Below, one piece after another: positions 14,731 through 24,910 of a DNA stretch of 64,000 nucleotides (positions within the stretch are counted from its first letter, which is position 1; every line of letters starts with the position of its first letter). The translations under genes and the position numbers were made by a program. This DNA comes from Thermophilibacter provencensis (GTDB lineage: Bacteria > Actinomycetota > Coriobacteriia > Coriobacteriales > Atopobiaceae), in contig NZ_JAUDEA010000005.1 of NCBI RefSeq assembly GCF_030372065.1, positions 1 to 64,000 on the forward strand, in the 5' to 3' direction. The notes beneath the pieces were generated by a model. The model was given only the letters and a program-made list of their open reading frames with translations. It was not told the origin of the DNA and made no database searches.

Positions 14731-15330
14731 TTGGCAAGCTCATACGGAACGGATGCCGACAAGAGCTCTCTGAGGAGCAACTACCTCTCCGTTCGCAAGG
14801 CGATTCCCACACGCAGCCGAGCCTCCTCGGATGCTTCCATCCGCTCCTCCCTGAGGGCGTTTCCCATCTTTGACGCTGCCGAGCTCGTGCTCACCTACGT
14901 CTCCTTTGGTCCCGAGGTCGACACGCGCTCGATCATTGCCGAGCTCCTCGAGGAGGGGCGTCGCGTCGCCGTCCCGCGCGTGAACAAGGCGGCGCACGCA
15001 ATGGACTTCTGCGAGATCTTCTCGCTTGACGAGCTCGAGCCGGGCGTCATGGGCATCCTCGAGCCGGCCCCTAACGCTGAGCCGCTGACCACGCCGGAGC
15101 TCGTCGGCTCCGTATGCCTTGTTCCGGGTCTGGTCTTTGACGGGTCTGGCCACCGCGTGGGCTATGGCGGCGGCTACTACGACCGCTTCCTTGCCTTCTA
15201 CCCGGGCGACAAGATCGCGCTGGCGAGAACCACGATGCTCTCGTCAAACCCCCTGCCGGTAGGGGTGCACGACGTTCCCGTTGACTTCATCGCCACCGAG
15301 AGCGGCATCTGGAACTGCCGCGGCCGCTAG
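14731..15330 (+). CDS. 5-formyltetrahydrofolate cyclo-ligase
   Basis: 199-residue enzyme that uses ATP to convert 5-formyl-THF to 5,10-methenyl-THF, recycling folate. The key motif GHRVGYGGGYYDRFL is near residue 141, with SFGPEVDTRSII in the first half and the C-terminal PVGVHDVPVDFIATE. The start is most likely TTG at 14731, with GGGGAGGG just upstream; no in-frame ATG or GTG fits the family N-terminus. A -10-like TATCAT lies at 14691-14696. It faces the aroQ fusion gene, with 63 bases between the stops. Confidence 0.9.
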   Translation: MASSYGTDADKSSLRSNYLSVRKAIPTRSRASSDASIRSSLRAFPIFDAAELVLTYVSFGPEVDTRSIIAELLEEGRRVAVPRVNKAAHAMDFCEIFSLDELEPGVMGILEPAPNAEPLTTPELVGSVCLVPGLVFDGSGHRVGYGGGYYDRFLAFYPGDKIALARTTMLSSNPLPVGVHDVPVDFIATESGIWNCRGR

Positions 15331-15393
15331 CTGCCGCGCTTCTTGTGCTGCCAGAGCGCCACATTTTAAAACGGGCGAGAGGGACAAAAGACC

Positions 15394-16350
15394 CTAGAGC
15401 CCCAGGTGCTCCGCCATGTCGAAGATGGCCTTGCGGTAGCCCTCGACGCCCAGGCCCATGATGGTCTCGAAGCAGGCGGCGCGGATGTAGGACACCTGGC
15501 GGAACTCCTCGCGCTCCTCCACGTTTGAGATGTGGACCTCGATCATGGGAAGGCCCACCGCCTTGGCCGCGTCGAGAATGGCGATGGAGGTGTGGGTGTA
15601 GGCGCCGGGGTTGATGATGATGCCGGCGTAGGTGCCGTAGGCGTCCTGGATGGCGTCGATGAGGTCGCCCTCGTGGTTGGACTGGAAGCAGGTGCAGCCC
15701 GCAAAGCCGGCCTCCTGCGCGGCGTCGTGGCAGATGCGCAGCATTGCCTGGTAGGAGTCGTGACCGTAGATGTCCGGCTCGCGGATGCCGAGCATGTTGA
15801 TGTTGGGGCCGTTGATCACGAGCACGCGCGCGCTCGTCTCGACGGGTTCTTCCTCGTCTTCCTCGGAGTTCCCCTCCTCAACGGGGGAAATCCCCGCGGC
15901 GTCTTCCGTCTCCATGGTGTCGAGCATGCTCACGAGGTCCTCGACGGAGGCCTCCTTCTCGGTGGGGGTCAAATCGTCGAGGTCTTCTGCCTCGTTCTGG
16001 GCGCGCGCGGCGTCACGAAGGGGGTTTGCGGTGATGTGGACGTGGAGCGGGGAGGGACCGGCGCCCGAGACGCCGTCAAAGATCTCCTCGTCGGCCTCAA
16101 CGCCGGTGAGCTGCACGAGCGCCTCATGAACGGCCTCGACCTTGCCGGGACCAAAGACGACCTCGATGCCGTTCTCGCCGCGCTTGACAAACCCGAGGAC
16201 GCCACGCGCCGCGGAGAGCTGCTCGGTGTCAACGAGGGAGGGGTCTTCGGTGAGAATCCTCAGGCGCGTCATGCAGATGTCATTCGCAGTGACGTTCTCC
16301 CTGCCGCCCACTGCGGCGAGGACTTCCTCCGCTATCTGGCGTCTGTCCAC
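15394..16350 (-). CDS. aroQ: PTS EIIB-like domain fused to type II 3-dehydroquinate dehydratase
   Basis: 318 residues in three parts. Residues 1-80 look like a glucose-family PTS EIIB domain: NDICMTRLRI holds Cys26, the residue phosphorylated in EIIB, and the following GVLGFVKRGENGIEVVFGPG matches the EIIB core. Residues about 81-173 are an acidic, low-complexity linker. Residues 174-318 are a complete type II dehydroquinase: INGPNINMLGIREPDIYG with catalytic Tyr195, QSNHEGDLID, INPGAYTHTS and EVHISN with His273. It dehydrates 3-dehydroquinate to 3-dehydroshikimate. The start is GTG at 16350 with GGAAGGG. It lies 173 bases after aroE-aroK and may have its own promoter. A PTS-dependent control role is inference. 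Confidence 0.88.
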   Translation of the reverse strand: MDRRQIAEEVLAAVGGRENVTANDICMTRLRILTEDPSLVDTEQLSAARGVLGFVKRGENGIEVVFGPGKVEAVHEALVQLTGVEADEEIFDGVSGAGPSPLHVHITANPLRDAARAQNEAEDLDDLTPTEKEASVEDLVSMLDTMETEDAAGISPVEEGNSEEDEEEPVETSARVLVINGPNINMLGIREPDIYGHDSYQAMLRICHDAAQEAGFAGCTCFQSNHEGDLIDAIQDAYGTYAGIIINPGAYTHTSIAILDAAKAVGLPMIEVHISNVEEREEFRQVSYIRAACFETIMGLGVEGYRKAIFDMAEHLGL

Positions 16351-16523
16351 TTCGCGACCCTTCCCGTCGTCGAATCGCGAGCTGGAGCCCCGTCTCCACT
16401 CACCTCATGCCCGACAGTCCAATTATCATTTCGAAAGCACAGTATACGGGCACCGGGGGTATGTGGCCCCCACTCCGCCGAGCGGTGCCGCAGACGGTGG
16501 CTGCACCAACAAAACTGCACGAT

Positions 16524-17807
16524 TTAGCCTATGAAAAGTCCGCGAACGGCCTCTGCGTCCCCCTCAGCGGAGCCTGTGCAGCGCACGGTGAGGTCGGCCC
16601 ACGCGCGGTAGAGCCCCATGCGCTCCTCCGCGAGCCGCTCGACCCCCTTGGCCTGCGAGACGGGACGCCCGCTGGACGAGAGCTCCTCGATCGGGCGGTC
16701 GAGAAAGACGATGAGTCCGTTCTGGTGGATGAGGTCGTAGTTCTCGGGTCTTGTGACCACGCCGCCCCCGCACGCGATGACGAGCCCCGAGCGAGCGCCG
16801 TAGCTGCCGGTGACGGCCGTTTCGACCGAGCGGAACGCGTCCTCCCCGTCCTCGCGGATGATCTGGGCCGCGCTGCGCCCGCACTCAAGCTCGAGGGCGT
16901 CGTCGATGTCAACGAAGGGCCTGCCTAAAAGCCGCGCGAGCGCGCGCCCGCAGGATGACTTTCCCGCCCCGGGCATGCCGATGAGCACGACGTTTTGGGT
17001 CTGAAGGCGTATCTCGCGCTCAATGGCACCCACGAGCCCCCGGTCCAGGGCGCGCGCCTGGAAGAGCTCGCTCGCAAAGAGGGCCTGCCCCACCAGCATG
17101 GCAAGGCCGCTCTCCGAGGGAATCCCCAGACGCTCGGCTGCAAGGCAAAGACCGGTGCGGCACGGGTTATAGACAACGTCAAGAACGCCGAGAAGACCAT
17201 GGAATGAGGCAAGCGTCTCCTCGTCGAGCGGGGAGGAGGGGCAGGCGGGGAACATTCCCACGGGCGTCGTGTTGACGATGAGGACGGCATCCGCGCGTCG
17301 ATCCACAAGCCCCTCGTAGGTCTCGTTGCCCGACCGCGACACCACCACGACACGAGCGCCCGTCTCCTCGAGCGCCGCGCGCACGGCACGGCTCGCCCCA
17401 CCCGAGCCCAGAACGAGCGCGGTGCGATTGGCGAGAAGCTCAGACGGCGCGACGCCGTGCTCGCGAAGGAAGAACCGCTCGAGCATGAGGGAGAACCCGA
17501 GCACGTCGGTGTTCTCGGCAAAGATCGAGCCGTCCGGCCTCCTCACAAGGGTGTTGGCAACACCGAGCGCGTCCACACGGCTCGAGCGCTCGTCGGCGAG
17601 TCCCGCTGCGAGCCGCTTGTGAGGGATGGTCACGTTGAGGCCGCGCCACGCGCCGCGGAGGATGAGGTCCTCCGCGCCCTTCTCGTCAAGGTCGTGGAGG
17701 TCGTAGGGAACCGAGCCCAGGCGCGCGTGGATCTGCGGCGACCAGCTGTGCCCCAGCGGGTGCCCGATGAGGCCATACGGCGCGGCGGCGCTGCTCTGAG
17801 GGGCCAT
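16524..17807 (-). CDS. aroE-aroK: Bifunctional shikimate dehydrogenase / shikimate kinase
   Basis: 427 residues, two complete enzymes in one chain. Residues 1-268 are AroE (3-dehydroshikimate plus NADPH to shikimate): GHPLGHSWSP, NVTIPHK with Lys64, ENTD with Asp101, and the NADP loop GSGGASRA. Residues 270-427 are AroK (shikimate plus ATP to shikimate-3-phosphate): Walker A GMPGAGKSS at 277-285, VDIDDALE, and CGGGVV. All expected active residues are present. The ATG at 17807 abuts the pheA stop codon (TAG-ATG), so translation is probably coupled. In most bacteria these are two separate proteins. Confidence 0.93.
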   Translation of the reverse strand: MAPQSSAAAPYGLIGHPLGHSWSPQIHARLGSVPYDLHDLDEKGAEDLILRGAWRGLNVTIPHKRLAAGLADERSSRVDALGVANTLVRRPDGSIFAENTDVLGFSLMLERFFLREHGVAPSELLANRTALVLGSGGASRAVRAALEETGARVVVVSRSGNETYEGLVDRRADAVLIVNTTPVGMFPACPSSPLDEETLASFHGLLGVLDVVYNPCRTGLCLAAERLGIPSESGLAMLVGQALFASELFQARALDRGLVGAIEREIRLQTQNVVLIGMPGAGKSSCGRALARLLGRPFVDIDDALELECGRSAAQIIREDGEDAFRSVETAVTGSYGARSGLVIACGGGVVTRPENYDLIHQNGLIVFLDRPIEELSSSGRPVSQAKGVERLAEERMGLYRAWADLTVRCTGSAEGDAEAVRGLFIG

Positions 17808-18959
17808 CTAGATCACCTCGGCATAGCTGCCCAGGTAGCGGCACTCCTGGCAGAGGCTCCCGATGGTGGCCATGAGCGAGGAGAACTCGGGCGAGGCCAC
17901 GGGGCACTCCACGTCGAAGTAGAACATGAACTCGAAGTCGCGCTCGGGGATGGGGCGGCTCTCGAGCTTGAGGATGTTGATGTCGAGCGCGTAGAACTTT
18001 GCGAGCAGCTTGTAGAGGGCGCCGGGGCGGTGCGGCAGCACGATCATGAGCGAGGTTCGGTCCGCACCGGGGTAGACCTCGAGGTCCTTTGAGATGCAGG
18101 CAAAGCGCGTGTAGTTGTTGTCGCGGTCCTGCACGTTTGAGGAGAGGGCAACGAGCCCGTAGAGCTCGGCGCAGGGGCGAGACGAGAGGGCGGCCACGTC
18201 GGCGCGCTCGGACTCCGCCACGCGCTTGGCGGCCACGGCGGTGTTCTCGCACACGTGGACGCGCACGTCCGGCAGGCCCGAGAGGAACTCGGCGCACTGG
18301 TTGATGGCCTGCTCGTGGCTGTAGATGTCGCGCACGTCGGAGAGCGCGGTCCCCGGCTTGGCAAGGAGGTTGTGCGAGACCTTCACGCGCGTGGTGCGGA
18401 CGATGTGAAACGAGTGCTCCATCATGAGATCGAACATCTGGTTGACGGAGCCCGCGGTGGAGTTCTCGAGCGGCAGCACGCCGTAGCGGGCGAGGCCCTG
18501 CTCCACGGTGCGGAAGACGCCGTCAAAGGTGGGGGAGTACGTGATGGTGGGGTGGCGGAAGATCTTCTCGGCCGCAATCTGCGAGTAGGCGCCCTCCACG
18601 CCCTGGCAGCTCACGTGTGCCGAGGGCGGGAAGAGCTCGGGCGTTGCGGCACGGGCGGCGTTGATGCGCGCGAGCGTGCGGTCGTCCGAGGCATCGCCGA
18701 GAAGGGCGTGCTGGCGCGAGCGCGAGGCCTCCATGAGAAGCTCCATGAGCACCTGCGCGTACGTCTCCAGGTCCTCGGGCGCCGCCTCTGCCGCGGCCGC
18801 GACCTTCGCGCGCTCTCTCGAGGGGTCAAACACGCGCATGCCGTTCTCGCGCTTGTACGCCGCAACCTCCTCCGAGACCTGCGCGCGCTCGGAGAAGAGC
18901 TCGAAGATCTTCCCGTCGATCTGGTCTATCCGCTGTCTCAGCTCGCTGAGCTCTGCCAT
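17808..18959 (-). CDS. pheA: Bifunctional chorismate mutase / prephenate dehydratase
   Basis: 383-residue P-protein. Residues 1-85 form an AroQ-type chorismate mutase (MAELSELRQRIDQIDGKIFE, then SRERAKV). Residues about 108-290 form the prephenate dehydratase with GVEGAYSQIAAEK, the ENSTAGSV loop and the catalytic NNYTRF. The C-terminal ACT domain (PHRPGALYKLLAKF, KLESRP) should give feedback inhibition by phenylalanine. It makes phenylpyruvate from chorismate. The start is the ATG at 18959 with GAGGGAGAA. It leads the downstream sub-operon pheA-aroEK, separated from aroC by inverted repeats. A minus-strand TATCAT at 18994-18989 may be its -10 box. Confidence 0.93.
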   Translation of the reverse strand: MAELSELRQRIDQIDGKIFELFSERAQVSEEVAAYKRENGMRVFDPSRERAKVAAAAEAAPEDLETYAQVLMELLMEASRSRQHALLGDASDDRTLARINAARAATPELFPPSAHVSCQGVEGAYSQIAAEKIFRHPTITYSPTFDGVFRTVEQGLARYGVLPLENSTAGSVNQMFDLMMEHSFHIVRTTRVKVSHNLLAKPGTALSDVRDIYSHEQAINQCAEFLSGLPDVRVHVCENTAVAAKRVAESERADVAALSSRPCAELYGLVALSSNVQDRDNNYTRFACISKDLEVYPGADRTSLMIVLPHRPGALYKLLAKFYALDINILKLESRPIPERDFEFMFYFDVECPVASPEFSSLMATIGSLCQECRYLGSYAEVI

Positions 18960-19004
18960 GTCTTCTCCCTCTATCGGAATAATCGTCAATGATACGTTAC
19001 CGGA

Positions 19005-19090
19005 CGCCCGGCCCATTCGGTCCGGCGCTCAGACAGCTTGCCGAGAAGAACGCTCGGCAAGAACTCGCGGCGGACCGAATGGCCCGGGCG
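19005..19090. repeat. Nested inverted repeat, 20-bp arms
   Basis: Arms 19005-19024 and 19071-19090 pair with one mismatch. Inside is a perfect 9-bp hairpin, CTTGCCGAG (19037-19045) with CTCGGCAAG (19053-19061). It lies in the 338-base gap between aroC and pheA, which contains no gene. Confidence 0.8.
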
Positions 19091-19132
19091 TTCTCGAGGC
19101 GGTCCCTGACCTGTGACGGAAATGACTTTCAC

Positions 19133-19240
19133 GTCGGGCGGGGACAGGCGGGAAGGTCCGCCGTGAGTTCCGCAGCCGAGCGCTCTTTGCGAGGCGAGGA
19201 CTGTCCGAGCGCCGGACCTTCCCGCCTGTCCCCGCCCGAC
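19133..19240. repeat. Perfect 28-bp inverted repeat
   Basis: Arms 19133-19160 and 19213-19240 are exactly complementary over 28 bases and flank a 52-base loop. It starts 43 bases away from the element at 19005-19090. A stem this long in RNA would be a strong barrier or RNase III-type substrate between aroC and pheA messages. There is no T-tract. Confidence 0.85.
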
Positions 19241-19297
19241 CTTGGTGCCCTTGCAGTGCCGGACCTTCGCGCCCGCCGCCCGCCAACCCCGAGGCGA

Positions 19298-20413
19298 CTA
19301 CTCGGCCGGCCAGGTGAGGAGGGCGTCGGCCACTGCGAGGGCGCAGACGGCCTCGACCACGGGGACCGCGCGGATGACCGCGGTGGTGTCGTGGCGTCCG
19401 TGGACCTTGAGGCGGGCGGGCTCCATCGTGGTGAGGTCAACGGAGTCCTGCTCGACCATCACGCTCGAGATGGGCTTGAGGGCGCAGCGCACGAGGAGCG
19501 GGGCGCCGGTGGTGATGCCGCCGAGGATGCCGCCCGCGTTGTTGGTGCGGGGCACGCAGGTGCCGTCGCGCACCTCGAACGGGTCGTTGTTCTGGGTGCC
19601 GCGCATGCGGGCGACGTCAAAGCCGCGCCCGAACTCCACGCCCTTGACGGCGGGGATGCCAAAGAGGGCGCGGGCGAGCACGTTCTCCATGCCGTCGAAC
19701 ATCGGCGAGCCCACGCCCGCGGGAAGGCCGGTGCAGGCGCACTCCACGATGCCACCCACGGTGTCCTTCTCGGCGCGGGCCGCCATGACCGTGTCGACCA
19801 TGCGTTGGCCCGCGGCCTCGTTGATGGTGGGCATGCGATGACCGTCGGCAAGGGACGCCATCTGCTCGGAAAGAAGCGCGTTGGCCTCGGGCGAGTTGTC
19901 GAGCGCGGAGAAGGGCTCATCGGGAATGCCCGCGAGCTCCGCCACGTGCGCGCGCACGCTCACGCCGCGCGTGGCGAGCCACTGCAGCGCCAGGGCCCCC
20001 GCCACGCAGAGCGGTCCGGTGAGACGCCCCGAGAAGTGCCCGCCGCCGGGGACGTCCTGGGCTCCGTGCCACTTGGCCCAGGCGGTGAAGTCCGCGTGGC
20101 CGGGGCGCGGGACGTCGAGGACGTTGCCGTAGTCCTGCGAGCGGGTGTTGGTGTTCTCGATGATGGCGGCGAGGGGCGCGCCGCAGGTCTCGCCGCGCGT
20201 GTTGAGCCCCGAGACGATGCGCGGGTGGTCGGGCTCCTTGCGCGGGGTGCCCCACGGATCGTTTCCGGGGGCGCGACGGGTGACGAAGGCCTCGAGCGCC
20301 TCGAGGTCAACGCGCATGCCGGAGGGCAGCCCCTCCACCACGCAGCCGACGGCGGGGGAGTGGGACTGACCGAAGACGCTCACCCTGAGCGTGGTTCCAA
20401 ACGAAGAGGGCAT
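19298..20413 (-). CDS. aroC: Chorismate synthase
   Basis: 371-residue FMN-dependent enzyme that turns EPSP into chorismate, the last common step. Family signatures: N-terminal SFGTTLRVSVFGQSHSPAVG, the central GGGHFSGRLTGP, and the C-terminal GRHDTTAVIRAVPVVEA. The ATG at 20413 shares one base with the aroA stop codon (TGATG), so it is translationally coupled. It is the last gene of the aroF-tyrA-aroB-aroA-aroC run. Confidence 0.95.
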   Translation of the reverse strand: MPSSFGTTLRVSVFGQSHSPAVGCVVEGLPSGMRVDLEALEAFVTRRAPGNDPWGTPRKEPDHPRIVSGLNTRGETCGAPLAAIIENTNTRSQDYGNVLDVPRPGHADFTAWAKWHGAQDVPGGGHFSGRLTGPLCVAGALALQWLATRGVSVRAHVAELAGIPDEPFSALDNSPEANALLSEQMASLADGHRMPTINEAAGQRMVDTVMAARAEKDTVGGIVECACTGLPAGVGSPMFDGMENVLARALFGIPAVKGVEFGRGFDVARMRGTQNNDPFEVRDGTCVPRTNNAGGILGGITTGAPLLVRCALKPISSVMVEQDSVDLTTMEPARLKVHGRHDTTAVIRAVPVVEAVCALAVADALLTWPAE

Positions 20414-21732
20414 CAGTTCTCCTTCACGCAGCTGCCGCCGAGGGCGACGAGGTCCTCGAAGAAGGCGGGATAGGACTTTGAGACGCACTCGGCGCCAACG
20501 ATGGTGACGGGCGTATCACAGCGGGCGGCGAGCACGGCGGCCATCATGGCGATGCGGTGGTCGTTGGCGGCGTCGACGGTGCCGCCGCGCGGCCGGGGCG
20601 TGCCGTCGATCACGAGGTCATCGCCATCGATGCTCGCAGAGCCCCCGAGGGCGCGAATGGCAGCCGAGACGGTGGCGAGGCGGTCGGACTCCTTGATCCT
20701 CAGGCGCGCGGCGCCGGTGATCCTCGTTGTTCCCTCGGCGACCGCGGCAACGGCGGCAAGGGGCGGCACGAGGTCGGGGCAGCTCCTGACGTCAAGGGTC
20801 CTGCCGACAAGGCGGTCGGGCTCCACGGCGGCACCGTCGGGGGAGCGCAGGACCCGCGCCCCAAAGAGCGCGAGCGCGGCGAGCATCTGGCGGTCGCCCT
20901 GCGCGCTCTTGTCGCTCAGGCCGCGCACCGCGACGCCCCTCTCGCCGAGCGCGCCCGCGGCGAGCCAGAACGCGGCGTTGGACCAGTCGCCGCCCACGCT
21001 GACGGTGCCGGGGGAGACGAGCCCGCGCGGGGCGGAGACCACATACGAGCGGGCCTCGGCGCCGTCCTCGGACACGGCGTCACTCTCGCTGACCTCTACG
21101 CCAAAGCGGGCGAGGGCGTCAACGGTCATCGTGATGTAGGGGAGCGACTCCACGGGCTTCCTCACGATCACCTCGACGGGCGCGCCCATGAGCGGGGCCG
21201 CCATGAGCAGGCCGCTCACAAACTGCGAGGAGACGTTTCCCGGCAGCTCAAAGCGCCCGGGGCGCAGCTTGCCGCTCACGCTGAGGGGCATCTTCCCCTG
21301 CGGCGAGAGCGTCACGCCATGGGCGACGAGCTCCTCGTAGAGAGGCGAGAGCGGGCGCTCGGGAAGCCTCCCCGAGCCCGTGAGGCGCCCGCCGCGGCCG
21401 AGGGCGGCCACCGCCGGGAGCAGGAAGCGCAGGGTGGAGCCGGACTCCCCGCAGTCGAGAAGGGCGTCCGGGGTGGGCTCGGGGACGTTGTCGGTGGCGG
21501 AGCTGCCCGGAACGGGCCTCACGCGAAAGCCCACCCTCGTGCGCGCGATCTTTGCCCCGAGCGCCTCGAGGCAGCGAACGGTCGCCTCGATGTCCGCCGA
21601 GGTGGTCGTGCAATCGATGTCGGTGGTCCCGGGGGCAAAGGCCGCGCAGACGAGCAGGCGGTGCGCCTCGGACTTTGACGAGGGCGCCCTGACCTCCCCG
21701 GTGAGCGGGGCCGGTGCCACGACGGCGTTCAT
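20413..21732 (-). CDS. aroA: 3-phosphoshikimate 1-carboxyvinyltransferase (EPSP synthase)
   Basis: 439 residues. Transfers the enolpyruvyl group of PEP to shikimate-3-phosphate. Motifs: APSSKSEAHR (phosphate and PEP binding Lys/Arg), LDCGESGSTLRFL, LPGNVSSQFVSGLL, RIKESDRL and DHRIAMMAAVLA. The gene overlaps neighbours by one base at each end (TGATG joins with aroB and aroC), a sign of tight operon coupling. No inference is made on glyphosate sensitivity. Confidence 0.95.
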   Translation of the reverse strand: MNAVVAPAPLTGEVRAPSSKSEAHRLLVCAAFAPGTTDIDCTTTSADIEATVRCLEALGAKIARTRVGFRVRPVPGSSATDNVPEPTPDALLDCGESGSTLRFLLPAVAALGRGGRLTGSGRLPERPLSPLYEELVAHGVTLSPQGKMPLSVSGKLRPGRFELPGNVSSQFVSGLLMAAPLMGAPVEVIVRKPVESLPYITMTVDALARFGVEVSESDAVSEDGAEARSYVVSAPRGLVSPGTVSVGGDWSNAAFWLAAGALGERGVAVRGLSDKSAQGDRQMLAALALFGARVLRSPDGAAVEPDRLVGRTLDVRSCPDLVPPLAAVAAVAEGTTRITGAARLRIKESDRLATVSAAIRALGGSASIDGDDLVIDGTPRPRGGTVDAANDHRIAMMAAVLAARCDTPVTIVGAECVSKSYPAFFEDLVALGGSCVKEN

Positions 21733-22844
21733 CAGCGCACCTCCTCGCGGCCGAGCTCAACAAGCTCGCGAAGCTCGTCGAGGGTCGCGCGCCTCACCTC
21801 AACGTGGCCCACCTCAACGGGCACGACGATGTTCACCGAGCCCCCGTGGCGCTTCTTGTCGTGCGCCATGTAGTGGAGCAGCAGGTCCGCGGGGAGGTCG
21901 CAGCCCGTGGGCAGCGCGTGGGCGGCAACGCAGCGCTCGATGCGCGCGGCGGTCTCGCTCGTGCACCAGCCCCTCCGGGCGGAGGCGCGCGTCATCATGC
22001 AGAGCCCCGCCGCAACGCAGGAGCCGTGCCCGAGGGTGAAGTCGCTCGCGGACTCGATGGCGTGTCCGATCGTGTGGCCGAGGTTGAGCGTCTGCCTGAG
22101 GCCGCGCTCGCGCTCGTCGGCGTCCACGACGTCGCGCTTGATCTCAACGTTTCTGGTGACGACGTCAACGAGCCTCCCCTCGTCCGTCCCGGGGGCGTTG
22201 AGGGGGCGCTCCGTGAGCTCGTCGAGCAGGGCGGGATCGGCGAGAACCGCGTGCTTGATCACCTCTCCGCAGGAGTCCGTGAGGAGCTCGTGCGGCACGC
22301 TCGCCAGGCAGCGCACATCGGCGAGCACGGCGCTCGGCTGCCAGAAGGCGCCCACGAGGTTCTTGCCGGCGGGGAGGTCCACGGCGGTCTTGCCGCCAAC
22401 GGAGGAGTCCACCATGGCAAGAAGCGAGGTGGGGACCTGCACGACTCGAATGCCGCGCAGGTAGAGCGCTGCGCAGAGCCCCGCCATGTCTCCCGTCACG
22501 CCACCGCCGAGGGCGATGACGGCGTCATCGCGCGTGAGGCCGCGCTCGGCAAGGCCCTCGAGGAGGCCGCCGAGCACCGCGAGGCTCTTCGATGCCTCTC
22601 CGGCGGGAAAGACGAGCCGATCGGTGACGTCAACGCCCGCATCCGCAAGCGAGGTCTCGGCCGCCTGGGCGTAGAGCGGGCCGACGTTGGTCTCGGTTAT
22701 CACGCAGGCGCGGGACGACCCCGTGCCCGCCACAACGCGTCCCAGGTCGTCAAGGTTGCCGGCCCCCACGTGCACGTCGTAGGAGCGCGACGCGGTCCCC
22801 ACGTGAACGGTGCGCGGCGCGGCACACGGGTTTATCTCGCTCAT
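21732..22844 (-). CDS. aroB: 3-dehydroquinate synthase
   Basis: 370-residue NAD- and metal-dependent cyclase that turns DAHP into 3-dehydroquinate. Clear motifs: ALGGGVTGDMAGLCAA (NAD binding), VPTSLLAMVDSSVGGKT, the metal-binding GEVIKHAVL, and LNLGHTIGHAIE. The ATG at 22844 overlaps the tyrA stop by four bases (ATGA). Confidence 0.95.
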   Translation of the reverse strand: MSEINPCAAPRTVHVGTASRSYDVHVGAGNLDDLGRVVAGTGSSRACVITETNVGPLYAQAAETSLADAGVDVTDRLVFPAGEASKSLAVLGGLLEGLAERGLTRDDAVIALGGGVTGDMAGLCAALYLRGIRVVQVPTSLLAMVDSSVGGKTAVDLPAGKNLVGAFWQPSAVLADVRCLASVPHELLTDSCGEVIKHAVLADPALLDELTERPLNAPGTDEGRLVDVVTRNVEIKRDVVDADERERGLRQTLNLGHTIGHAIESASDFTLGHGSCVAAGLCMMTRASARRGWCTSETAARIERCVAAHALPTGCDLPADLLLHYMAHDKKRHGGSVNIVVPVEVGHVEVRRATLDELRELVELGREEVR

Positions 22845-23770
22845 CGTCCCTCGATCTCTCTCTTGATGCGGTCTCCCTCGGAAAGGAGCGACTCAAGGCG
22901 CTCGGCGTCGCGGGCGTCGAGCGCGTCCTTGTATGCCTGGAGGTTCCCAATGACGCAGCCCAGCTCCTCGGAGAGGAAGTCGGCGTTGTCGAGGAAGAGC
23001 TCGGTCCACATGGGGGCGTTCAGGCGCGCCACGCGCGTGAGGTCGCGGTAGCTCCCGGCCGAGAAGCCCCTGTGGTCGCGGGCGGTGGGGCTCTTGACAT
23101 AGGCGTTCGAGACCACGTGCGCGAGCTGGGAGGTGAAGGCGATGTTGCGGTCGTGCTCCTCGGCCGTGGCCAGGGTGAAGCTGCCGAAGGCGCAGGGCGC
23201 GAGAAGCTCCTTCAGGCGCTCCAGGACGCTCGCGCGCTCAAACTCGTCCATCTCGGGGGGCACCACGACCATGGGCGCGCCCTTGAACATCGTTGCGCGG
23301 GCGTGCGCGAACCCGGAGTACTGCGTTCCCGCCATGGGGTGGCACCCCACGAAGGTGAAGGGGTAGTCGCGGCAGATCTTCTCGCAGCGCTCGCAGATGA
23401 CGCGCTTCACGCCCACGGTGTCGATGACGATGGAGCCGGGCGAGACGAGATGCGCGTAGCGCTCGAGCCACTCGACGGTGGAGGCGGGGTAGCCCGCCAG
23501 GACGATGAGCTCGCAGGTGGGGATCGTCTCCTCGTTGAGCTCGCCGGAAACGACCTCGATCATGGCCAGCTCGAGCGTGGAGCGGGTACGGTTCCACGCA
23601 TAGACCTCGGCGCCGGCGACGGCAAAGGCCTTGGCAAAGGAGCCGCCCATGAGGCCGAGGCTCACCACGCCGTAGCGTCCGGGCACAAACGTCGGGCTCT
23701 TCTCGCTGGTGTCCAGGGCGTCCACTTTGCACCCGGTACAAAGTGGACGCTGCTCGTTAGTGCCTGCCAC
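22841..23770 (-). CDS. tyrA: Prephenate dehydrogenase
   Basis: 309 residues. Oxidatively decarboxylates prephenate to 4-hydroxyphenylpyruvate for tyrosine. The NAD fold starts at about residue 33 with VVSLGLMGGSFAKAFA; later motifs are VGCHPMAGTQYSG and FTSQLAHVVSNAY. There is no fused chorismate mutase or obvious ACT domain. The GTG at 23770 follows GGAGG by five bases and directly abuts the aroF stop. This start gives about 30 residues before the NAD fold that are not family-like, and residues 7-17 are encoded by a palindrome also seen near trpS. Confidence 0.93.
   Translation of the reverse strand: MAGTNEQRPLCTGCKVDALDTSEKSPTFVPGRYGVVSLGLMGGSFAKAFAVAGAEVYAWNRTRSTLELAMIEVVSGELNEETIPTCELIVLAGYPASTVEWLERYAHLVSPGSIVIDTVGVKRVICERCEKICRDYPFTFVGCHPMAGTQYSGFAHARATMFKGAPMVVVPPEMDEFERASVLERLKELLAPCAFGSFTLATAEEHDRNIAFTSQLAHVVSNAYVKSPTARDHRGFSAGSYRDLTRVARLNAPMWTELFLDNADFLSEELGCVIGNLQAYKDALDARDAERLESLLSEGDRIKREIEGR
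23720..23750. repeat. 31-bp palindrome within tyrA codons 7-17
   Basis: CGTCCACTTTG and its exact complement (outer 11 bases), then ACC/GGT after one mismatch, around a central C: 15-base arms with one mismatch. It is related to the palindrome 32 bases upstream of trpS (14579-14609). In mRNA it would form a strong hairpin about 20 bases after the tyrA start codon. Confidence 0.7.
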
Positions 23771-24796
23771 CTATGCCTCCTCGATGGGCGCCGTGACGGC
23801 GTCGCGGATAAGGGCGATGCGGCGCATGGCGTCGGCAAACTGCGGGGGAGTGAGCGCCTGGGCGCCGTCCGACCATGCCTGCGAGGGGCAGTCGTGCACC
23901 TCGACCTCGAGGGCGTCCGCGCCCGCGGCAACCGCCGCGTAGGCCGCCGGGCGCACGTAGCGCGTGTAGCCGGTCGAGTGGCTCGGGTCGGCAACCACAG
24001 GCAGGTGCGTGAGGTGGTGGAGCACCGGGATGGCGTTCACGTCGAAGGTGTTTCTCGTGCGCGTCTCAAAGGTGCGGATGCCGCGCTCGCAGAGCATGAC
24101 GCTCGCGTTGCCCTCGCTCATCACGTACTCGGCGCTCATGAGCAGCTCGTCGATGGTCTGCGACATGCCGCGCTTGAGCAGCACCGGCGCTCCCGCGCGG
24201 CCCACCTCGCGCAGGAGCGGGAAGTTCTGGGCGTTTCTCGCCCCGATCTGCAGGACGTTCACGCCCTTGCGAATAAAGAGCTCCACGTCGCGCGGGTCCA
24301 TGACCTCGGTCACGACGGGCATCTCAAGCTCGGAGCCCGCCTCCATGAGCAGGTCGAGCCCGCGCTCGCCCATGCCCTGGGAGGTGTAGGGCGAGGTGCG
24401 CGGCTTGAAGGCGCCACCGCGCAGCATGGTGGCGCCAGCGGCCTTTGCCGCACGGGCTATGCGAATGAGGTTCTCGCCCTCCACGGAGCACGGCCCGGCG
24501 ATGACCTGGAAGTTCCCGCCGCCCACGAGCACGCCGTGGCCGCAGTCGATGACGGTGTCCTCGGGATGGAACTTGCGGTTGGCGAGCTTGTAGGGCTCGG
24601 AGACGCGCTGGACGCGCTCGACGATGTCCATGCTCTCGAGGATGAACGGGTCGATGCGCGTGGTGTCGCCGATGATGCCGATGAGGGTCTCGTTGTCTCC
24701 CTGGGAGACATTGGTCTTGAAGCCGCGGCCCTCGATCCACCGTACCAGGTGGTCGAGCTGCTCTGTGGTTGCCGAATCCTTGACTACTGCGATCAT
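23771..24796 (-). CDS. aroF: 3-deoxy-7-phosphoheptulonate (DAHP) synthase, type I-beta with N-terminal regulatory domain
   Basis: 341-residue entry enzyme of the pathway, joining PEP and erythrose-4-phosphate. Residues 1-75 form the ferredoxin-like regulatory domain seen in Thermotoga-type DAHP synthase, where it gives feedback by Tyr/Phe. The barrel follows: VIAGPCSVEG, RGGAFKPRTSPYTSQG, VLLKRGMS, and the metal site in ADPSHSTGYTRYV. The ATG at 24796 has GGGAGC upstream. A minus-strand TATCAT at 24840-24835 is a weak -10 candidate. First gene of the aromatic operon. Confidence 0.94.
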   Translation of the reverse strand: MIAVVKDSATTEQLDHLVRWIEGRGFKTNVSQGDNETLIGIIGDTTRIDPFILESMDIVERVQRVSEPYKLANRKFHPEDTVIDCGHGVLVGGGNFQVIAGPCSVEGENLIRIARAAKAAGATMLRGGAFKPRTSPYTSQGMGERGLDLLMEAGSELEMPVVTEVMDPRDVELFIRKGVNVLQIGARNAQNFPLLREVGRAGAPVLLKRGMSQTIDELLMSAEYVMSEGNASVMLCERGIRTFETRTRNTFDVNAIPVLHHLTHLPVVADPSHSTGYTRYVRPAAYAAVAAGADALEVEVHDCPSQAWSDGAQALTPPQFADAMRRIALIRDAVTAPIEEA

Positions 24797-24910
24797 ATGG
24801 GCTCCCGTGGTGGGGGTGCGGACAATTCCGCGCGATGATACCACGGTGATGTGACCGCGCGGTTACGTGGCCGTCACGTCTTTGGCGGGGCGCGCGCCCG
24901 TGGAATGCGC

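Follow-up and report, generated by a model that had tools for sequence, protein, structure and literature searches.

In the family of Thermophilibacter provencensis a PTS EIIB domain, fused in front of the type II dehydroquinase (DHQ) AroQ, is kept in 20 genomes with a type I dehydroquinase whose fused DHQ has lost active-site residues, and in five genomes from which the DHQ is absent. This suggests that the relay domain has a job of its own, apart from the enzyme half. A sequence-only reading of the DNA had proposed that the EIIB exists to tune the attached dehydroquinase, a claim that the comparison speaks against. If the switch served the attached active site alone, the retention of the EIIB would be unexplained; therefore a module acting elsewhere is favoured. 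We read EIIB and linker as a regulatory module of the chorismate pathway that is phosphorylated by the PTS and has no need of the DHQ active site, and give this reading about an even chance of being right. It builds directly on the architecture, the conservation, the decay or deletion of the DHQ with the EIIB kept, the purifying selection and the operon context; from these observations we infer the phosphorylation, a partner, the direction of control and a scaffold.

The fusion gene and its operon

The window, i.e., the whole stretch of 64,000 nucleotides analysed, carries the fusion gene with these features:

15394..16350, minus strand: EIIB-linker-dehydroquinase fusion gene, GTG start, 318 aa
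16358..16365, minus strand: Shine-Dalgarno-like GGGAAGGG, 7 nt upstream of the GTG
16096..16350, minus strand: EIIB domain, residues 1-85 (Pfam, NCBIfam, structure model)
16273..16275, minus strand: Cys26, predicted phosphorylation site, in ICMTRLR; C in 121/121 aligned fusions
16258..16269, minus strand: TRLR, residues 28-31; T28, R29 and R31 in 121/121 aligned fusions, L30 in the motif of 122/122
16162..16164, minus strand: Glu63, specific to the fusion-type EIIB by comparison with transporter EIIBs
15835..16095, minus strand: acidic linker, residues ~86-172 (alignment, charge)
16030..16047, minus strand: linker motif LHVHIT, residues 102-107, strand-like, weakly conserved
15910..15966, minus strand: predicted linker helix, residues 129-147 (low-confidence model; Leu139 conserved in 98 % of 100 rows)
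15397..15834, minus strand: type II dehydroquinase domain, residues 173-318, nine active-site residues present
15393..15412, minus strand: weak terminator-like stems at the gene end, their count in the region being about that of shuffled sequences

The first reading had called the gene an EIIB-dehydroquinase fusion and had suggested a PF00367 profile search as a check. Both halves were confirmed over the Pfam cut-offs in one open reading frame of 318 aa: PTS_EIIB (PF00367) matched residues 8-41 significantly, with 42.4 bits against a cut-off of 27 (E 4.6e-11), and DHquinase_II (PF01220) matched residues 175-310 with 183.9 bits against 23.3 (E 1.5e-54). The NCBIfam model for aroQ (TIGR01088) was also over its cut-off (176.9 vs 169.85 bits). 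The best EIIB match in NCBIfam was the sucrose IIBC model (residues 3-86, E 1.5e-16), at 60.2 bits far under the cut-off set for the whole protein. The acidic linker, described at first with about 90 residues, was found at residues ~86-172 with a median net charge of -11.5 over the fusions. No promoter-like site was found in the region, terminator-like sites were at chance level, and an Rfam scan revealed one tRNA and nothing else.

The EIIB-AroQ gene is the last of a minus-strand aromatic set starting with DAHP synthase, the other members being identified by profile matches:

16524..17807, minus strand: AroE-AroK fusion, next gene upstream
17808..19016, minus strand: chorismate mutase / prephenate dehydratase (CM/PDT)
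19298..20488, minus strand: chorismate synthase AroC
20413..21732, minus strand: EPSP synthase AroA
21732..22844, minus strand: 3-dehydroquinate synthase AroB
22841..23770, minus strand: prephenate dehydrogenase TyrA
23771..24844, minus strand: DAHP synthase

Judged from order and spacing, the set from DAHP synthase to EIIB-AroQ probably forms one operon. The stretch 15394-24844 (minus strand) thus holds a near-complete aromatic amino-acid gene set; the double use of PEP by the shikimate pathway, pointed out in the first reading, is represented by both PEP-consuming steps. In 119 of the 124 family loci fetched, the aroEK gene is the immediate upstream neighbour of the fusion and shares its strand; four loci are without an aroEK match. 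In one locus (L131, genome G033) EIIB-DHQ is located on the strand opposite to aroC, CM/PDT and aroEK, the sole such break among the 124. Shikimate dehydrogenase and shikimate kinase are one protein (16524-17807), whose match also precedes the DHQ in the outgroup loci L104-L108. A function of the EIIB as second shikimate kinase was considered and dismissed as unneeded, the upstream AroK half having its own Pfam match. The motifs of this AroK half look intact by eye. On the downstream side of the fusion lies a gene for 5-formyltetrahydrofolate cyclo-ligase (14749-15330, plus strand); its mechanically predicted ORF starts far too early (13429) and crosses a TrpRS-like gene on the opposite strand.

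Spread and conservation of the EIIB domain

A type II DHQ was detected in 127 of the 140 genomes of the window's family (f1), and 124 of these 127 loci were fetched; among the three left out (G013, G081, G115), two, G013 and G115, had been matched over nearly their full length by the order scan. A search of related genomes for the same architecture, a further suggestion of the first reading, revealed a readable EIIB fusion in 122 of the 124 fetched family loci. With a one-frame architecture in so many loci, a chance fusion, a frameshift or an assembly artefact was ruled out. The rows dropped were L002, a duplicate of the window, and two without a readable motif, L034 (contig end inside the EIIB) and L067 (Ns, frame). 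L060, which has a masked stretch, was counted among the 122 readable fusions and is absent from the 121-row alignment; a 100-row alignment set left out L045, L060 and L067.

Beyond the family, the order scan (395 genomes) reached the EIIB part, among the matches listed, only within f1, while other families were matched in the DHQ part. In the class scan (396 genomes) with a profile of 85 fusions, the matches listed outside f1 started at profile position 117 of 307 or further on. Rarer fusions may exist in other families, as both scans gave shortened lists of matches. The named-genome scan picked loci by DHQ peptides; six of its 80 loci were full-length fusions, including Atopobium sp. UBA1382, an uncultured Olsenella and Atopobium sp. 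Marseille-P4126, and 74 had the DHQ only. By these names, f1 most likely corresponds to Atopobiaceae. The window's protein shares the complete catalytic domain with ordinary bacterial AroQ, which has neither EIIB nor linker. Such an ordinary AroQ stands alone behind aroEK, without an EIIB match, in the five fetched outgroup loci (L104-L108), one of which is without a CM/PDT match; therefore the fusion of the EIIB to the front of aroQ most likely dates from around the origin of family f1.

The first reading had matched the domain to a glucose-type EIIB, with Cys26 in ICMTRLR, and had named a loss of this cysteine in close homologues as an argument against its proposal. None was lost: the motif C-x-T-R-L-R is kept in 122 of 122 readable fusions (111 CMTRLR, 8 CATRLR, 3 CLTRLR), as well as in five of five standalone EIIB copies. 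PF00367 was over its cut-off also for the standalone copy L149 (35.3 bits) and for L086 of genus g31 (38.4 bits). Position 63 is occupied by E in 121 and by D in one of the 122 fusions, and by E in all five standalone copies (Glu/Asp in 127/127). At the equivalent position of 16 transporter EIIBs from family genomes Gln was present in 15 and Glu in one, the fourth-strand Gln criterion being a comparison made in this analysis and not a published one. Further differences of the fusion-type EIIBs from these transporters are R57, F66 and an extra G61. By this alignment Glu/Asp63 is best taken as a sub-type mark and no ground to deny EIIB membership, as one transporter also has Glu. The Gln of E. 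coli EIIB matching position 63 is, we assume, located near the phospho-cysteine; a search of open-licence papers yielded no paper on EIIB active-site residues.

In the window's genus (29 rows) the median dN/dS (Nei-Gojobori) was 0.141 for the EIIB, 0.166 for the DHQ and 0.713 for the linker (406, 406 and 371 of 406 pairs), ratios that include only pairs with 0.05 < dS < 1.5 and are rough because many dS values are large. Thus, the EIIB is constrained as strongly as the enzyme. In genus g31 the medians were 0.223 for the EIIB (50 of 120 pairs), 0.537 for the linker (60 pairs) and 0.35 for the DHQ, the latter with only 22 of the 120 pairs usable; genus g34 gave no value.

Decay and deletion of the attached dehydroquinase

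The active-site residues of type II DHQ are, in M. tuberculosis numbering, Asn12, Arg19, Tyr24, Asn75, His81, Asp88', His101, Arg108 and Arg112 (PMC6011038). These nine positions were mapped onto the fusions by motif order and a constant offset. All nine are present in the window, in agreement with the intact dehydroquinase described at first, and in 100 of 100 aligned fusions of genomes without a type I match (g31 set aside; 121 aligned in total). The type I dehydroquinase, unrelated to type II, was found in 24 of the 140 family genomes, all in the genera g31 and g35. At least one active-site position was lost in 20 of 20 aligned fusions of genomes with a type I match, counts that are not independent, g31 being one clade and the g35 cases lying in a neighbouring group and on the G130 branch. 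In 19 of the 20 the loss is within the essential Arg/Tyr/Asp trio. An exception is G071, a member of g31 with a genome 77 % complete, which lost residues without having a type I match. All 16 g31 proteins miss the lid Arg and Tyr, and the EIIB motif is intact in all 16. The fused DHQ of G126 and of G132 may still be active because each differs at a single one of eight positions in an eight-position scoring.

A PF01220 match was absent from G122, G131, G135 and G137, all with type I, and from G139 (73 % complete), which is without a type I match. In these five genomes an ORF of EIIB and linker, ending at a stop codon, is located behind aroEK in the same gene order, and no DHQ match was found in the five loci. 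The tree of AroEK and CM/PDT, calculated without L100 and with L139 represented by one of its two genes, placed the standalone copies in two lineages: G131/G135/G139/G137 (support 85) stand beside the fused-but-decayed G132/G133 (joint clade 100), and G122 groups with G125, G126 and G129 (support 88; 57-58 inside). G125 has an intact fusion and no type I match in a genome 76 % complete. Among G131, G135 and G139 the EIIB had a dN of 0.011-0.035 at a dS of 0.52-1.00, hence a ratio of 0.02-0.04, and the linker one of 0.14-0.17; for the other seven standalone EIIB pairs dN/dS was 0.09-0.19 in six and undefined in one. In the lineage of G131/G135/G139, the linker motif ITPETPG and a helix around ALLE-x-LD can be made out in proteins with and without the deletion. 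Fused and standalone proteins of one g35 lineage (L147-L151, L063, L065, L068, L082) keep ITPETPG almost unchanged, and other lineages have ISPGRRxSYxAQ-like stretches where it would sit.

The selection data contradict the view that the EIIB is a neutral passenger of a chance fusion. Its confinement to a single family, with probably one origin, would suit such a passenger, but a dN/dS of 0.14 in the window's genus and of 0.02-0.04 in the close standalone pairs, against a fast linker, and a motif kept in 122/122 fusions and 5/5 standalone copies do not; we reject it and leave it next to no probability.

The 13 genomes without a type II DHQ consist of the five with a standalone EIIB, three with the operon cut by a contig end and five without an aroC match. 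A loss of the DHQ gene in G011, G053 and G082 was rejected: because the contig end cuts the operon, the missing gene is no evidence of loss. Neither aroC nor the EIIB module was detected in G008, G009, G010, G030 and G138, and G030 alone among them is at least 90 % complete; these five fit a link to the pathway, yet loss of the operon would remove both. No readable locus with an assembled aroEK end of the operon was without the EIIB, a hint and no more that its job belongs to the aromatic pathway.

In the structure model of the fusion monomer (mean pLDDT 87.1, pTM 0.64) the EIIB and DHQ domains are confident and the linker is of low confidence, with helices at residues 110-123 and 129-147; the EIIB appears in this model to have no fixed packing on the DHQ. 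The model of standalone L149 (mean pLDDT 76.5) comprises a confident EIIB and a low-confidence tail with one helix. Foldseek matched the L149 model, the window's own model being outside this search, to 3bp3, 1o2f, 3bp8 and 3ipj (E <= 1.2e-5), 3bp8 being the EIIB complex with Mlc. After the EIIBs, the next fold matches were arginine repressor C-terminal domains (E from 0.008), a likeness that perhaps reflects a shared general fold only.

Phosphorylation of Cys26 could alter the activity of the attached dehydroquinase and so tune the shikimate flux. Such a control in cis agrees with the strict retention of the fusion where the type II enzyme is the only DHQ found, both active sites being complete in 100/100, and with the similar constraint on EIIB and DHQ in the window's genus. 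It leaves unexplained the intact EIIB on 20 dehydroquinases (21 with G071) that lost active-site residues and the five standalone EIIBs under purifying selection, and the low-confidence linker, the pTM of 0.64 and the lack of a fixed EIIB-DHQ packing in the model also speak against it. We consider this explanation unlikely. The joint occurrence of type I and a decayed type II serves as a natural experiment in which the role of the EIIB can be told apart from that of the enzyme; it directs bench work to a possible partner in trans.

Candidate PTS partners, proposed mechanism and known systems

EI was detected in 126 of the 140 family genomes (97 of 101 of good quality) and EIIA_1 in 134 (100 of 101), and no genome without PTS was found in the family. 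G075 (98 % complete), which carries the fusion with an intact motif, lacks an EIIA_1 match and shows EI only in part, at the edge of a contig; G013, G042, G066 and G129 (90-91 % complete) have a type II DHQ gene and EIIA_1 and no EI match. These genomes count against a PTS-phosphorylated module, though the missing matches are likely assembly gaps. The window's genome possesses EI and four EIIA_1 domains, three of these freestanding. The freestanding proteins are encoded at C1:70077-71096 and C35:21160-21531 (L122-L124), with a tandem pair among them. The window's contig gave no further match to EIIA_1, EIIB or EIIC, as expected from the first reading, which had seen no EIIC or EIIA nearby.

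The main rival takes the EIIB for a working transport component: charged by a soluble EIIA, it would phosphorylate a sugar bound to an EIIC encoded elsewhere, and would stand next to aroQ by accident. In its favour, the fusions share with the 16 transporter EIIBs compared an invariant Cys, Thr and pair of Arg in C-x-T-R-L-R. A sugar-phosphorylating EIIB would likewise keep an intact TRLR, a point against the regulatory module. However, the only glucose-family permease with an EIIB match in the window's genome carries its own EIIB and EIIA, Glu/Asp63 takes the place of the transporters' Gln, and the aroEK-linked position is kept in 119/124 loci. We give a transport function the same low probability as the control in cis. 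The other three EIIC matches of this genome we take, by eye, to be of the cellobiose, fructose and mannitol types, and no orphan glucose-family EIIC was seen in it.

The dephosphorylated form of E. coli EIICB-Glc sequesters the repressor Mlc (PMC3901232; complex 3bp8). EIIB domains are thus able to bind proteins, and the EIIB might be a protein-binding or stabilising domain independent of phosphorylation. The invariant Cys and Arg residues are hard to account for without phosphate chemistry, and we hold this for less likely still than a transport function.

In B. subtilis, glucose-family EIIAs, including the freestanding PtsA, phosphorylate EIIBs without a cognate EIIA (PMC6148471); by analogy, a route from EI via EIIA to Cys26 is plausible. 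In the favoured reading as a regulatory module, a glucose-type EIIA, charged from PEP via EI and HPr, would phosphorylate Cys26 of the soluble module, whose state would thereby vary with PEP supply and sugar uptake. In one of its two states, phosphorylated or not, the module would use the EIIB face and the linker motifs to bind a partner. This would most likely be either a neighbouring pathway enzyme, e.g., AroE-AroK, whose gene directly precedes the module in nearly every locus, or an operon regulator, and we make no choice between them; a regulator could be held as dephosphorylated EIICB-Glc holds Mlc. The fusion to AroQ would provide co-expression and perhaps a multivalent scaffold or oligomeric display, with AroQ as carrier. 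Against the regulatory module it can be said that the poor conservation of the linker and its low-confidence model define no partner site, and that the operon position may persist by inertia. Somewhat short of an even chance is given to a more specific proposal: a specialised PTS reporter with an acidic residue for the strand Gln and a partner-binding linker, born as an AroQ fusion and able to outlast the enzyme, would regulate the whole aromatic operon, and as a pseudo-dehydroquinase fusion in some species or a free EIIB (~145-160 residues) in others would couple PEP status to chorismate biosynthesis in trans.

The fusion shares EIIB family and fold with E. coli EIICB-Glc, which conveys a regulatory signal through its state of phosphorylation. 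The E. coli EIIB belongs to a membrane permease, whereas the EIIB here is soluble, attached to a biosynthetic enzyme or alone, and has Glu for the strand Gln. B. subtilis SacX (PMC6148471) is comparable as an EIIB that receives its phosphate from a glucose-family EIIA, non-cognate or freestanding, and was examined by way of a regulator; SacX retains an EIIC, the fusion protein has none. An EIIB joined to a cytosolic metabolic enzyme is already known from the triosephosphate isomerase / PTS IIB fusion of NCBIfam (NF011497), which has another enzyme and the EIIB at the opposite end; its match to the window's protein is weak (24.4 bits vs a cut-off of 485) and covers the EIIB part alone. Also known are dead DHQase domains kept after replacement: the inactive type I DHQase domain of Candida albicans Aro1 is compensated by the type II enzyme Dqd1 (PMC9074039). 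As in Aro1, a dead domain is retained in a multidomain protein beside a non-homologous DHQase. The situation is a mirror image, however, since here type II decays with type I present, the EIIB is the partner domain and the DHQ is gone in five genomes.

Neither an EIIB-AroQ fusion nor an EIIB outliving its enzyme was found in searches of open-licence papers, and the same holds for a PTS control of a PEP-consuming amino-acid pathway; both are weak evidence of absence. The part of PTS proteins in regulating sugar use is well established. If true, the control of a PEP-consuming amino-acid pathway by a PEP-derived PTS signal would be a link of a new kind.
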